Positions 4,420 through 29,358 of a stretch of DNA of 32,042 nt are shown piece by piece. A program made the translations under genes and the position numbers. Below the pieces are notes generated by a model that made no database searches, was not told the DNA's origin, and worked only from the letters and a program-made list of their open reading frames with translations. Position 1 is the first letter of the stretch; the number at the start of each line of letters is the position of its first letter. The DNA comes from Thermoleophilia bacterium (GTDB lineage: Bacteria > Actinomycetota > Thermoleophilia > Gaiellales > JAICJC01), in assembly GCA_025928655.1 (NCBI GenBank), contig JAICJC010000033.1:1-32042 (forward strand), written 5' to 3'.

Positions 4420-6024
4420 TCAGGCGGGCGCGCCCGGGCCACGGTGGACGACGCGGCCGGCGACGACGGTGAGGTCGGCCTCGAGCCGGGTCAGCTCGTC
4501 CGCGGGGGTAGCCAGCGGATCGTTGCCGTACACGGCGAGGTCGCCCTCGAGCCCGACCGCGATCGTGCCCTGGGCGGCCTCGGCGAACGTCGCGCGGGCG
4601 GCGAAGCGGGTCGGCGCCAGCACCGCCTCGGAGAGCGACAGGGCCTCGCCGGGCGGCGGCACGGGCGCGCCGTCCCCGGTGCGGCGGCGCACCATGGCGG
4701 CGACCCCGTGCCAGGGGGTCGTCGCGAAGGGCGCCGTCCCCGCGCTGTCGGAGTTGCCGGGCGGCTCCAGGCCCTCGGAGAGCAGCGTCCGGAAGGGGAA
4801 CGGCAGGTTGCCGCCCGGCTCGCCGTCGCCGGGCCGGGCCGCGTAGCGGTGCATGAACGACGCCGTCGGCACGGGCACGATCCCGGCGGGCTCGAGGCGG
4901 GGGAGGATGCCCCGCTCGCAGACGGCGTTGCCGACGTGCTCGATGCGGGAGCGGTGATCCGCCGCCGGGTGGGTGCGGTTCGTCTCCTCGACCGCGTCGA
5001 CGGCGAGCTCCTGGGCGACCGCCCCGACCGCGTGCATCCACACCTGCACCTCGCGCTCGCGGCAGTCGGCGAGCACCGCCCGAAGGGCGGCGTAGGAGAA
5101 CGGCGCGAGGCCCCAGGCGCCGGGCCCGGCGGCCAGCTGCGGCCGCGTCCAGGCGGCCTCGCCGGCGCCGTCGAGGAAGAGCTTGAGCGCGCCGACCGTG
5201 AGCCACGGGTGCACGCTGCCCAGCCCGGCGCGCAGCTCGAGCAGCTCGCCCGCTCCCGCCACGGTCGCCTGGTGGCCGGGGCGCAGGATCGGGTTCAGCA
5301 CGATCCGGCACGGCATCCGGTCGGACCGGGCAAGCGCCCGCCAGGCGGCGAGCGCCGCCTGCGACGCGGGCAGCTCGTGGATCGCCGTCACGCCGAAGCG
5401 CACGAAGGAGTCGCGCGCCTGCGCGGGCATGGCCTCGGCCAGCCAGTCGGCGCTCGGCCACGGCAGCGGGAAGAGGTCGAAGCCCTCCTCGACGATCCCC
5501 GTCGGCTCGCCGTCGGGGGCGCGGCGCACGCGCGTCCCGGCCGGCTCGACGAAGCGGCGGTCGATCCCGGCGCGCGCGAGCGCCTCGGAGCTGGCGGAGA
5601 GCTTGTGCATGCTCTCGCGGACGATGACCGGGCGCCCGGGAGCGGCGGCGTCGAGCTGCTCGCGGCTCGGCAGCCGCTGGCCGAACGCGCCCTGGGCGAT
5701 GATCCATTCGCCGGCGCCGGGCCCGGCGGCGGCCTCGGCCACCCGGGCCGCGGCGGCCTCGGGGGCGGCTGCGCGCACCTGCACCCAGCGGCCCCCGGCG
5801 AGGGCGGAGAGCTCCAGGTGCGCGTGGGCGTCGATCAGCCCGGGGAGCACCGTGCGGCCGGCGAGATCGAGCGCCTGCGTCCCGGGCCGCGCCCGGCCCG
5901 TCAGCTCGCGGCTCGCGCCGACCGCGGCGATACGGCCGTCCTCCACGAGCACCGCCTCGGCGACGGTGCCCACGGCGTCGAGCGTGCGCACCCGGCCGCC
6001 GGCGAGCAGGAGGTCGCCGCTCAC
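4420..6024 (-). CDS. Amidohydrolase-family protein (YtcJ-like metal-dependent hydrolase)
   Basis: GTG start at 6024 overlapping the upstream stop (GTGA); 'LLLAGGRVRTLDAVG...LAGRTVLPGLIDAHAHLELSA' and C-terminal 'GTIAVGLEGDLAVYGNDPL'. Confidence 0.88.
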   Translation of the reverse strand: MSGDLLLAGGRVRTLDAVGTVAEAVLVEDGRIAAVGASRELTGRARPGTQALDLAGRTVLPGLIDAHAHLELSALAGGRWVQVRAAAPEAAAARVAEAAAGPGAGEWIIAQGAFGQRLPSREQLDAAAPGRPVIVRESMHKLSASSEALARAGIDRRFVEPAGTRVRRAPDGEPTGIVEEGFDLFPLPWPSADWLAEAMPAQARDSFVRFGVTAIHELPASQAALAAWRALARSDRMPCRIVLNPILRPGHQATVAGAGELLELRAGLGSVHPWLTVGALKLFLDGAGEAAWTRPQLAAGPGAWGLAPFSYAALRAVLADCREREVQVWMHAVGAVAQELAVDAVEETNRTHPAADHRSRIEHVGNAVCERGILPRLEPAGIVPVPTASFMHRYAARPGDGEPGGNLPFPFRTLLSEGLEPPGNSDSAGTAPFATTPWHGVAAMVRRRTGDGAPVPPPGEALSLSEAVLAPTRFAARATFAEAAQGTIAVGLEGDLAVYGNDPLATPADELTRLEADLTVVAGRVVHRGPGAPA

Positions 6025-7172
6025 GCCCCGGCCTCCAGCCGGGGAACGTGCTCGGCGGCCTGGCTCATCGCCCGCCGAAACCGGGGCGAGCGGGCCACGA
6101 CCGGGACGAGCCGCGAGCGCACGTCGAGCAGCGGCCGCGGCCAGCGGGTGCCGACGCGGCCGTACAGGAGCGAGTAGCGCTGGGTGCGGTCGGTGTACGG
6201 CCGCTCGCGCAGCTCCCACAGCCGCAAGGCCGCCGGGACGTCGGCGCGCCCGCTCACCGCCTGCCCGAGCGCGAGCGCGTTCGACATGGCGGTGCACGCG
6301 CCCTGGCCGAGGTTCGGCGACATGGCGTGGGCGGCGTCGCCGAGGACGGCCACGCGGCCGCTCGACCAGGCCCGGCAGCGGACGTCGTAGAACGTGAGCC
6401 AGCGCCCCTCGGGGTGGCGGGGGATGCGGCGCAGCTGGTCGGCGTACGCCGGGTGCGAGCGGATCCACTCCTCGGTGTCGAACGGCTGCTGCAGCCGCCC
6501 GGCGATGTCGGTGCTGGGGCAGCAGAGGAAGACGTACACCCAGTCGCGGCTGGCCGGCGCCACGCCGATCCGGCGGCCGCCGTTCCAGGCCTCGAACGTG
6601 CGCTGGACCGGGTCGGCGGTCGTGCGCGGGATCAGGTGGCGGCCGCAGCCGTCCCCGAGATCGACGATCGACGTGGCCAGGCCGAGCGAGTCGCGCACGC
6701 GCGAGTGGACGCCGTCCGCGCCGACGACGAGGTCGGCCCGGCCGCCGAGCCCGGAGGCCAGCTCGAGCCGTCCGTCCGGCGTTGCCGCGAGCGCCCTCGA
6801 CCCGGTCACGATCTCCGCGCCGGCCGCCGTGGCGGCGCGGGCGAGCGCTCCGTGCAGGTCGCGCCGCAGCGCCACGAAGAGGCGCGAGTTGACGGCGCGG
6901 CGCTCGTTACGGCGGATCACGAGCCGGTCGCGGTGGTCGCGCAGGTCGCCGTCGAAGATCTGCTCGGCGCGGCCGGCGACGTCGTCGTAGGCGCCGATCG
7001 CCTCGAGCACCCGCAGGGCGTTCTCGAACAGGTAGATGCCCGCCCCGATCTCGCGCAGGCCCTCGCCCTGCTCGTGCACGCGCACCTTCCAGCCGCGCTG
7101 GGCGAGGACGGCGGCGGCGGTCAGGCCGGCCAGTCCGGCCCCGGCGATCTCGGCGCGGCGCGTCTCCGTCAT
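6021..7172 (-). CDS. FAD-dependent aromatic hydroxylase-type monooxygenase
   Basis: 'AEIAGAGLAGLTAAAVLAQRGWKVRVHEQ' GxGxxG, 'LVVGADGVHSRVR' DG motif, 'GRVAVLGDAAHAMSPNLGQGACTAM' GD motif. Confidence 0.92.
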   Translation of the reverse strand: MTETRRAEIAGAGLAGLTAAAVLAQRGWKVRVHEQGEGLREIGAGIYLFENALRVLEAIGAYDDVAGRAEQIFDGDLRDHRDRLVIRRNERRAVNSRLFVALRRDLHGALARAATAAGAEIVTGSRALAATPDGRLELASGLGGRADLVVGADGVHSRVRDSLGLATSIVDLGDGCGRHLIPRTTADPVQRTFEAWNGGRRIGVAPASRDWVYVFLCCPSTDIAGRLQQPFDTEEWIRSHPAYADQLRRIPRHPEGRWLTFYDVRCRAWSSGRVAVLGDAAHAMSPNLGQGACTAMSNALALGQAVSGRADVPAALRLWELRERPYTDRTQRYSLLYGRVGTRWPRPLLDVRSRLVPVVARSPRFRRAMSQAAEHVPRLEAGA

Positions 7173-7196: not shown

Positions 7197-7217
7197 CGCA
7201 TACCGCGCCAGTATGCG
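7197..7217. promoter_or_regulatory. Perfect inverted repeat CGCATAC-N7-GTATGCG upstream of the monooxygenase operon
   Basis: CGCATAC CGCGCCA GTATGCG, 25 bp upstream of the 7172 start; includes a -10-like CATACT on the minus strand. Confidence 0.55.
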
Positions 7218-18619: not shown

Positions 18620-20002
18620 TCAGCCCGGCTCGGGCGGGCCCGGAGCGAGCGAGCCGAGGTACGAGGCCGGGTCCGCCACGATCCGGGCGAGATCCTCCGG
18701 ACGGTAGACGGCGGCGACCTCGGGATCGAGCTGCAGCGCGGCGTCGAGCGCCTCGCCGGATGCGGCGGCGTGCGCGCTCGCCCGTGCCACCATCGCGTGG
18801 GCGCGCTCGTGCCCCCACCGGCGCGCGAGCTCCATCATCACGGCCTCGGCCATGATCCCGCCGCGGGTGATTTCCAGGTTGGCCCGCATGCGGTCGGCGT
18901 CGATCTCGATGTCCTGCAGGATCCAGGCCAGCTTCGACGCAATGCCCGCCGTCAGGATGAGCGCCTCCGGCAGGGCGACCCACTCCACCGCCCACAGGCC
19001 CATGTCGCGCTCTCCGGCGTGCGAGGCCGAGTGGGTCAGCGCCGTGGTGCCCGCGTACACCAGCCTGGCCGAGGCGATCAGGTACTCGCTGGTCATCGGG
19101 TTTCGCTTCTGCGGCATCGTCGAGGAGCCGACATGCCCCGGCACCGCCGGCTCGCGCACCTCGGCCACCTCGGTTGCCTGCAGCCGCACCACCTCGGCCG
19201 CGATCCGCTCGCCCGCCGCCGCGATCTGGGAGAGCGCGTGCGCCACCTCGCGGACGCGGTCGCGGGCCGTGTGCCAGGCAGCGGCGGGCATCGGCAGGCC
19301 CAGGTGCACGGCGAAGCGTGACCGCACTGCGGTCGCGGCATCGCCGAGCGCGGCCAGGCTGCCGGCGGCTCCCCCGAGCTGCGCGCACACCACCTCGTCC
19401 TCGAGCCGGTCAAGCCGGGCGACGGCGCGCCGGAGCTCGTCCGCCCAAGTTTCCGCCTTCTGCCCGAACGCGATCGGAACGGCATGCTGGCCGTGGGTGC
19501 GGCCGGCCATCGGAACGGCTCGGTATCGACGCGCCAGCTCACCGGCCGCGTGCTCGGCGGCGGCAAGCTCGCCCCGGATCAGCCGCGTCGCGGCCCGCAC
19601 CTGGAGCATCATCCCCGTGTCGATGACGTCTTGGGTCGTCGCGCCCCAGTGCACGTAGGCGCCCGCGTCTCCGCAGCGCTCGACCAGGGCGCGGATCAGC
19701 GGCACGAGCGGATGCTGGGACTGCGCGATGCCCTCTCGGAGGAGGTCGAGGTCGAAGCGGGAGGCGTCGGCCTCCTCGGCGATCCGGTCGGCGGCCGCCT
19801 CGGGGATCACGCCGACCTCGGCCTCGGCCCGCGCCAGCGCGACCTCGCTGTCGAGCCAGCCCTGCACGAGCGCGCGCGAGTCGAGCACGGCGCGGGCGTC
19901 GGCGGTGCCGTACAGATCGCGGAGCACGGTGCAGCCGATGCCGACCGCCGAGCCGCTCACGCCAACACGCCCTGCCCACGCCTCCCGCCGGTCACCACTC
20001 AT
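18620..20002 (-). CDS. Fumarase/aspartase/PcaB superfamily lyase (3-carboxy-muconate cycloisomerase or adenylosuccinate lyase-like)
   Basis: Signature 'SSTMPQKRNPMTSEYLIASARL'; 'HWGATTQDVIDTGMMLQ'; 'AGRTHGQHAVPIAFGQKAETWADELRR'. Confidence 0.88.
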   Translation of the reverse strand: MSGDRREAWAGRVGVSGSAVGIGCTVLRDLYGTADARAVLDSRALVQGWLDSEVALARAEAEVGVIPEAAADRIAEEADASRFDLDLLREGIAQSQHPLVPLIRALVERCGDAGAYVHWGATTQDVIDTGMMLQVRAATRLIRGELAAAEHAAGELARRYRAVPMAGRTHGQHAVPIAFGQKAETWADELRRAVARLDRLEDEVVCAQLGGAAGSLAALGDAATAVRSRFAVHLGLPMPAAAWHTARDRVREVAHALSQIAAAGERIAAEVVRLQATEVAEVREPAVPGHVGSSTMPQKRNPMTSEYLIASARLVYAGTTALTHSASHAGERDMGLWAVEWVALPEALILTAGIASKLAWILQDIEIDADRMRANLEITRGGIMAEAVMMELARRWGHERAHAMVARASAHAAASGEALDAALQLDPEVAAVYRPEDLARIVADPASYLGSLAPGPPEPG

Positions 20003-20041
20003 ACGATTGACCATCGTATGGATCACCGTTCGGCATGTCAA
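20000..20041 (-). promoter_or_regulatory. Promoter/operator of the lyase gene: TTGACA-N17-TACGAT with CATACGAT-N5-ATCGTATG over the -10 and start codon
   Basis: Minus strand TTGACA (20041-20036), TACGAT (20018-20013), 17-bp spacer; inverted repeat at 20000-20020; ATG at 20002. Confidence 0.7.
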
Positions 20042-20075
20042 CCCCGGCCCCGTCGGGCGCCCTAGACTTGCCACC

Positions 20076-21083
20076 GTGGAACGCACACCACGCAGGGTGC
20101 GGATGAAGGACGTCGCCGCCGAGGCGGGGGTCGATACGTCGCTCGTCTCGAGGCTGCTGAACGCCGACCAGACGCTGAGCGTGCGACCCGAGACCGAGGA
20201 GCGGGTGATGGCAGCGGTGCGCCGGCTCGCGTACCGGCCCAACACCGCCGCACGGACGCTCAAGACCGCCCGCACGATGGCGCTGGGGATGGTCATCCCC
20301 GACCTCAGCAACGTGATCTATGCCGAGATCGCCCGGGGAGCCGGCGACCGGGCCGCCGCCGCTGGATACGTGCTGCTGATCAGCGGTGCGGCTGCGGAGG
20401 TGCGTACCGAGATCCTCGAGGATCGCGTCGACGGGTTGCTGTATGCGGTCGCGACGGCCCAGTCGGTTCCCGACCTGGACGTCCCAGGTGCTCCTCCGGC
20501 GATCCTGATAAACCGGCGCGGTCCGGCCAGCAGCCCGAGCGTCGTCGTCGACGACCGGGCCGGCGTTGCGCTCGCCACGCGATACCTGCTCTCGCTCGAG
20601 CACCGCCGGATTGCCCACGTCGCCGGGCCCCAGGACGTCGACACGGCTCGGCGCAGGCGGCGTGGCTACGTCGATGCGATGACCGCGGCCGGACTCGACG
20701 TCCCCGCCGAGCTGACGGTGGAGTCGACGTTCGACGAGGAGGGCGGGGCGGCCTCGACGGCGGCCCTCCTGCGGGTCACGCCGCGCCCGACCGCGATCGT
20801 CGCCGCGAACTCCAACGCCGCCGTCGGGGCGATGGCGGCCGTCCGCGAGGCCGGGCTCTCGGTCCCGCAGGACGTCTCGGTCGTCGGGCTCCACGACATC
20901 CCCCACGCGTCGTATCTGAACCCGGCGCTGACGACGGTGCGCATGCCGCTCGCCGAGATGGGCGGCCGGGCGGTCGACCTCCTGCTCGGCATGATCGCCG
21001 GTGACCCGGGCGGCGCCGTCATGGTCACGACTCCCCCGGAGCTCATCGTGCGCGCGTCGTGTGGGCCGCCGGCCGGGCGCTGA
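20076..21083 (+). CDS. LacI-family transcriptional regulator
   Basis: 'RMKDVAAEAGVDTSLVSRLLNADQTLSVRPETEERVMAAVRRLAYRPNTAARTLKT'; GTG 20076 preceded by TAGACT-N7, alternative ATG 20103. Confidence 0.93.
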   Translation: MERTPRRVRMKDVAAEAGVDTSLVSRLLNADQTLSVRPETEERVMAAVRRLAYRPNTAARTLKTARTMALGMVIPDLSNVIYAEIARGAGDRAAAAGYVLLISGAAAEVRTEILEDRVDGLLYAVATAQSVPDLDVPGAPPAILINRRGPASSPSVVVDDRAGVALATRYLLSLEHRRIAHVAGPQDVDTARRRRRGYVDAMTAAGLDVPAELTVESTFDEEGGAASTAALLRVTPRPTAIVAANSNAAVGAMAAVREAGLSVPQDVSVVGLHDIPHASYLNPALTTVRMPLAEMGGRAVDLLLGMIAGDPGGAVMVTTPPELIVRASCGPPAGR

Positions 21084-28580: not shown

Positions 28581-29324
28581 TCAGGCCGAGGCCGACCGCA
28601 GACGTGGGGTGACGGTCTTCGACGTGACGTCGAGGACCATGCTGATCAGCTCTTCGCGGTTTTCTCGGAACCGCTCCGACGGCGCGGAGATCCCCATCGC
28701 CATGGTGCCGTCCGCGACCGGTGCGGCCACGCACGAGACTCCCTCGGCGAACGCCTCCTGGTCGATGGCGTACCCGGCGTCGCGCACCATGCCGATCTCC
28801 TGCCGCAGCGACGCCGGGTCGGTGGCGGCCCGGGCCGATTTCGAGACGGCGTGCTTCTGGAGGTAGTCGTCGAGGGCGCCGGCGGCGCTGAACGCCAGCA
28901 GCACCTTGCCCGAGGCCCGGGCGTGGGTGAGGCCGGAGTAGCCCATGTGCAGCCCCGTGACGCGCACGGCCCGCTGCCCCTCGATGATCGAGAGCAGCAC
29001 CGCGTCGCCATTGCGCCAGGCCGACAGGTAGGCGGTCTCGCCGGTGAGATCGGCCAGCTCGCGCAGGCACGTGACCAGGTACTCGGGGGCCGAGATCTGG
29101 GCCTCAAACGCCTCGGCGAGCAGCCCCACCTTCGGGCCGAGCTGGTAGCGCCGGTCGTCGAGCTTGGTGAGCATGCCGCTCCCGGTCAGCGTGCTCAGCA
29201 GGTGGAACGCGGTGGGCAGCGGGACGTCGAGCTTCGAGGCGATCTCCGCCGCCCGGAGACCGCCGCCGCTGCGCGCGACGAGCTCGAGCACCTCGACGGC
29301 GCGGCTGACGGATTGGATCAGCAT
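28581..29324 (-). CDS. IclR-family transcriptional regulator
   Basis: 'SVSRAVEVLELVARSGGGLRAAEIASKLDVPLPTAFHLLSTLTGSGMLTKLDDRRYQLGPKV' wHTH plus effector domain 'GVSCVAAPV...AMGISAPSERF'. Confidence 0.93.
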   Translation of the reverse strand: MLIQSVSRAVEVLELVARSGGGLRAAEIASKLDVPLPTAFHLLSTLTGSGMLTKLDDRRYQLGPKVGLLAEAFEAQISAPEYLVTCLRELADLTGETAYLSAWRNGDAVLLSIIEGQRAVRVTGLHMGYSGLTHARASGKVLLAFSAAGALDDYLQKHAVSKSARAATDPASLRQEIGMVRDAGYAIDQEAFAEGVSCVAAPVADGTMAMGISAPSERFRENREELISMVLDVTSKTVTPRLRSASA

Positions 29325-29332
29325 GGATCTAC

Positions 29333-29358
29333 TTTCATAGTTTGAAAACCACTTTGAA
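29333..29358. promoter_or_regulatory. Candidate IclR operator: TTTCA-N5-TGAAA inverted repeat plus a second TTTGAA 12 bp downstream
   Basis: TTTCATAGTTTGAAA at 29333-29347; TTTGAA direct copies at 29341 and 29353, in the AT-richer IclR/SDR divergent region. Confidence 0.5.

Follow-up and report, generated by a model that had tools for sequence, protein, structure and literature searches.

Between a LacI-family regulator gene and a divergently transcribed lyase gene lies a 115-bp gap in which the predicted lyase promoter is overlaid by a perfect inverted repeat. The question raised by this locus is whether the repeat serves as the operator of a repressor and, if so, which protein is likely to bind it. 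The window, that is, the whole stretch of DNA analysed (32,042 nucleotides, 72% G+C), contains the following features at this locus:

18620–19960, minus strand: PcaB/adenylosuccinate-lyase-like gene (446 aa; probable start codon GTG, 19960–19958), from profiles, codon statistics and homologues
19970–19973, minus strand: AGGG, a weak Shine–Dalgarno-like sequence 9 nt ahead of GTG 19960
20000–20002, minus strand: ATG, taken as the lyase start codon in the preliminary description; probably not the start, the first 14 codons looking non-coding
20000–20020, no strand: candidate operator, a perfect 8-5-8 inverted repeat CATACGAT-TGACC-ATCGTATG, from the sequence and chance estimates
20006–20008, minus strand: predicted transcription start, 5–7 nt past the -10 hexamer and inside the dyad, placed from the -10 position
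20013–20018, minus strand: -10 hexamer TACGAT, 4/6 consensus, inside one dyad arm, from the sequence and a promoter scan
20036–20041, minus strand: -35 hexamer TTGACA, 6/6 consensus, from the sequence and a promoter scan
20063–20068, plus strand: TAGACT, candidate lacI -10 hexamer 7 nt ahead of the lacI GTG, from the sequence, with spacing as in PMC3160421
20076–21083, plus strand: LacI-family regulator gene, divergent from the lyase gene (Pfam PF00356, 48.9 bits; PF13377, 136.7 bits)

The lyase promoter and its inverted repeat

On the minus strand, TTGACA is followed after exactly 17 bp by TACGAT and, 10 nt further on, by the ATG at 20002–20000, while the repeat CATACGAT-TGACC-ATCGTATG occupies 20000–20020; in all of this the preliminary description was accurate to the letter and coordinate. 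The promoter matches the consensus at 10 of 12 positions, and no other sequence near the gene resembles a promoter more closely. Shuffling of the 600-bp region gave on average 0.0 matches this good, and only one other 10/12 match occurs in the 32-kb window. The earlier wording 'strong promoter' therefore stands as a statement about consensus match, and about nothing else. The repeat overlaps both the -10 hexamer and the predicted transcription start. Neither another good palindrome nor a terminator was found in the gap between lacI and the lyase gene.

The repeat probably acts as one operator over the lyase promoter, to which a dimeric repressor would bind, and this is the best explanation of the locus. 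It is favoured by the position of the dyad on the best promoter match, its rarity, its uniqueness in the genome and the adjacent divergent LacI-family gene; it is weighed down by the lack of a central CG and of G at half-site position 6, by the failure to find an orthologous locus that would show the repeat conserved, and by the 2–6% chance of finding some 8-bp dyad in the gap. In the proposed mechanism, a repressor dimer on the dyad would lie across the lyase promoter's -10 hexamer and start site and would exclude RNA polymerase sterically. Release of the repressor by an effector would then allow the sigma-70-type promoter TTGACA-17-TACGAT to fire, giving a transcript predicted to begin near 20007, with a leader of ~47 nt, and to be translated from GTG 19960. 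The protein encoded by the divergent LacI-family gene (20076–21083) would be the likeliest repressor, and is itself probably translated from a leaderless mRNA; if the repeat is an operator, the chances that this protein is the repressor appear about even. The lacI gene would not be strongly autoregulated through the dyad, because the dyad lies 56–76 bp upstream of the lacI start.

Dyads are also seen beside other genes of the window. One, CGCATAC-cgcgcca-GTATGCG (7197–7217), lies ~25 bp upstream of an open reading frame resembling an FAD-dependent monooxygenase (6021–7172, minus strand). Another, CACAGATGT-atactg-ACATCCGTG (1557–1580; 8 of 9 positions paired), lies where a TetR-like gene (1554–2186), divergent from a cupin-like gene, begins, and the minus strand carries TTGACA-17-TATACA at this dyad.

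The divergent regulator and other candidate binders

The regulator contains the LacI helix-turn-helix (PF00356, above the cut-off of 27) and a periplasmic-binding-protein-like domain (PF13377), and is one of only three LacI-family genes in the draft genome. Matching of its translation to LacI by eye places the recognition-helix Arg in VSR (within DTSLVSRLLN) and the hinge Leu in PNTAARTLK. Its mRNA may be leaderless: the first T of TAGACT precedes GTG 20076 by 13 bp, a distance near the ~12-bp spacing reported for leaderless genes of Actinobacteria (PMC3160421). In a genome of the same genus, a contig end (L067, 1–2950) carries three tandem LacI-family coding stretches.

LacI-family operators follow well-described rules. 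Among 1303 motifs collected by Ravcheev and colleagues, 1251 are even palindromes and 1173 of these motifs have a central CG, while palindromes of 17, 19 or 21 nt belong to ~4% of the regulators; nearly 90% of the LacI-family proteins studied are local regulators (PMC4052901). Camas and colleagues connected two residues with the operator sequence, G at position 6 going with the recognition-helix Arg and the central CG with the hinge Leu (PMC2978694). The repeat at the lyase promoter departs from both patterns, being odd, 21 nt long and centred on TGACC, with C at position 6 and G at position 5 counted from the central base. The preliminary description was thus right to call the spaced dyad unlike CG-centred LacI operators, and the repeat moreover lacks the G6 that the regulator's own Arg would predict (PMC2978694, PMC4052901). 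No CG-centred G6/C6 site of LacI type was found in 19940–20110, and canonical LacI-type sites elsewhere in the window did not rise above chance. Near some relatives of the regulator in other genomes (L068, L078, L086), we read candidate CG-centred sites of the CTGCAATCGATTGCC type. A further candidate, GGGAAAACGATTTCCT at ~1443 of L073, is by our reading a CG-centred LacI-type site behind a TTGACA element; it precedes a transporter binding-protein-like gene just downstream of a LacI regulator with 47% identity. Binding of the adjacent LacI protein to the dyad is plausible, being the simplest guess by position, but fits the recognition rules poorly. That a protein with the standard Leu and Arg binds a 21-nt odd dyad lacking the central CG is doubtful; if it does, it would break the published rules and offer a test case for their reach.

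This misfit (PMC2978694, PMC4052901) also speaks for a second explanation, in which a regulator whose gene lies elsewhere, such as one of the TetR family, uses the dyad as its operator while the adjacent LacI protein acts at other sites. The genome scan for arm-N5-arm proposed in the preliminary description found the exact motif to be unique in the organism's own 3.69-Mb draft genome, the next-best match having 3 mismatches and lying within a coding region. Within the window, the motif occurs once at up to 3 mismatches (0.02 expected). For the core TACGAT-N5-ATCGTA, the draft genome holds no second match with fewer than 2 mismatches, and 12 sites compared with 8 for the reversed control. Since it is unique, the site would serve one promoter, as a local repressor's site does, which fits a regulator encoded elsewhere less well.

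Motif searches extended to 4 genomes of the same family, 399 of the class and 267 of the phylum. In the 267 phylum genomes, the 33 near-matches, compared with 19 for the reversed-pattern control, give no indication of an operator in wide use. Where the surroundings of matches with 1–2 mismatches were examined, most overlap open reading frames; those that are clearly intergenic adjoin TetR genes (L089, L090) or a toxin–antitoxin-like pair (L124). At positions 1501–1519 of both L089 and L090, near-identical ATACGATAC-N-GTATCGTA repeats beside TetR-family genes form a candidate TetR operator family. The outer arms of these repeats, ATACGATAC-N-GTATCGTA(T/A), are those of the lyase dyad, and their presence in two genomes of the same order speaks for a TetR-type binder, yet the dyads beside the TetR genes have arms that meet at one base and are not of 8-5-8 form. 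A limited literature search found no published TetR operator containing ATACGAT. Relatives of the lyase in Pseudomonadota are divergent from GntR genes with dyads of their own, so this lyase is not tied to LacI control; the lyase locus studied here has no adjacent TetR or GntR gene. Binding by the IclR protein encoded at 28581–29324 is unlikely, its own gap carrying a different dyad, TTTCATA-G-TTTGAAA at 29333. A TetR protein whose gene lies elsewhere is a reasonable rival to LacI, though on balance a regulator encoded elsewhere seems rather unlikely. The IclR-linked dyad itself is an imperfect repeat at 29333–29347, between the IclR-family gene (minus strand) and an SDR gene divergent from it, and appears to be the operator of that IclR regulator.

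Conservation is of little help. No close orthologue of the regulator was found in a collection of genomes from 84,980 species (best 36% identity, six exact peptide seeds) or in the class sample (best 50% identity). No orthologue of the lyase was found at E up to 1e-105 in the 399 class genomes or up to 1e-95 in 387 phylum genomes, the nearest lyase being ~43% identical, and in none of the genomes searched was an orthologous locus found with lacI and the lyase gene side by side. The missing conservation of the repeat, which had been named as a possible refutation, therefore says nothing either way.

Start of translation, and the role of chance

The lyase belongs to the fumarase/adenylosuccinate lyase superfamily; the nearest models are 3-carboxymuconate cycloisomerase and XcbD, and its solved-structure relatives include fumarate lyase, PcaB and trans-aconitate decarboxylase. 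It scores below every curated cut-off of the family models, among them those for 3-carboxymuconate cycloisomerase (PcaB): 296.9 bits against TIGR02426 (cut-off 355.75) and 389 bits against NF006554 (cut-off 595). The lyase and PcaB share a superfamily, and the scores do not allow the function of PcaB to be assigned.

The preliminary description placed the start codon at ATG 20002, inside the dyad, and predicted a near-leaderless transcript whose -10 hexamer, transcription start and start codon would all be covered by the operator. This proposal differs from the operator readings in the start codon only and overlaps with them. The ATG is in frame, with an unbroken reading frame into the lyase, and leaderless genes are frequent in Actinobacteria (PMC3160421). 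The codons ahead of GTG 19960, which is residue 15 counted from ATG 20002, tell against it: the 13 codons after the ATG have a codon log-odds of -11.8, lower than any of the 21 other gene starts scored across the window (mean +4.1 +/- 5.0, minimum -4.7, some of these starts being uncertain themselves). GC3 is 64% in the first 14 codons from the ATG compared with 92% over the remainder of the gene. Family profiles put the start mostly near residues 17–19, and annotated relatives begin at the equivalents of residues 10, 10, 14 and 23. In leaderless genes the signal peaks with the first T of TANNNT ~12 bp before the start codon (PMC3160421), whereas the first T of TACGAT is 16 bp from ATG 20002 and 58 bp from GTG 19960.

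Codon usage, the starts of homologues and the upstream AGGG thus favour GTG 19960, which is probably the translation start. The lyase mRNA would then have a leader of ~47 nt and would not be near-leaderless, so the earlier picture of an occluded start codon is probably wrong; translation from the ATG in the dyad is unlikely. Repression at the lyase promoter is unaffected by this correction, which is relevant to anyone expressing the lyase.

Perfect dyads with 8-bp arms are not very rare in this 72% G+C window, in which 53 occur with spacers of 0–12. Only 1 of the 53, the dyad at 20000–20020, carries four or more A/T in each arm, against an expectation of 0.37 per 32 kb. For the 115-bp gap, the chance of any 8-bp-arm dyad with a spacer of 0–12 is 1.9% under a first-order Markov model built on the gap itself, and 6.4% under whole-window composition; for the 8-5-8 form, the values are 0.2% (local composition) and 0.8% (whole-window composition). 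That the repeat is a chance palindrome bound by nothing, on a promoter that may be real, is improbable: some 8-bp-arm dyad occurs in 2–6% of gaps of like size and composition, many gaps were scanned in the preliminary description and the phylum near-matches exceed their reversed control modestly (33 versus 19), but no other perfect 8-bp dyad in 32 kb has four A/T per arm, and the repeat falls on the -10 hexamer and start site of a promoter that matches the consensus at 10/12 positions and points away from a regulator gene. The dyad is probably, although not overwhelmingly, more than chance.

Relation to known systems

The operator reading is mostly routine: an uncharacterised lyase gene, in a bacterial lineage of high G+C that has been little studied, would be switched by a local repressor. 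Among systems built on spaced half-sites, CytR offers a precedent for variable half-site spacing within the LacI family (PMC3454398). CytR works by anti-activation, and most of its sites are weak, imperfect repeats flanked by CRP sites, in contrast to the perfect dyad on the core promoter described here. The TetR-linked ATACGATAC-N-GTATCGTA repeats (L089, L090) share the outer arm bases and the arm-to-arm distance, but their arms run inward to a single central base and a TetR gene is adjacent, whereas the inner five bases of the lyase dyad are asymmetric and no TetR gene is near.

In the GntR–lyase–dicarboxylate transporter loci of Pseudomonadota (L099–L101), a related lyase is likewise divergent from a regulator, with dyads in the gap. 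These loci differ in their GntR regulator, in a different neighbouring transporter and in dyads that are contiguous, for example AATATGTCC-GGACATATT.

The local LacI repressors with operators of the lac O1 type also resemble this locus, in which a 21-nt palindrome, of a size to suit a dimer, covers the promoter of a probable catabolic gene and the regulator gene is adjacent. The candidate site at the lyase promoter differs from theirs in its five-base asymmetric centre and in having neither central CG nor G6. The locus is a fresh instance of a familiar arrangement, with the layout of an ordinary bacterial repressor switch.
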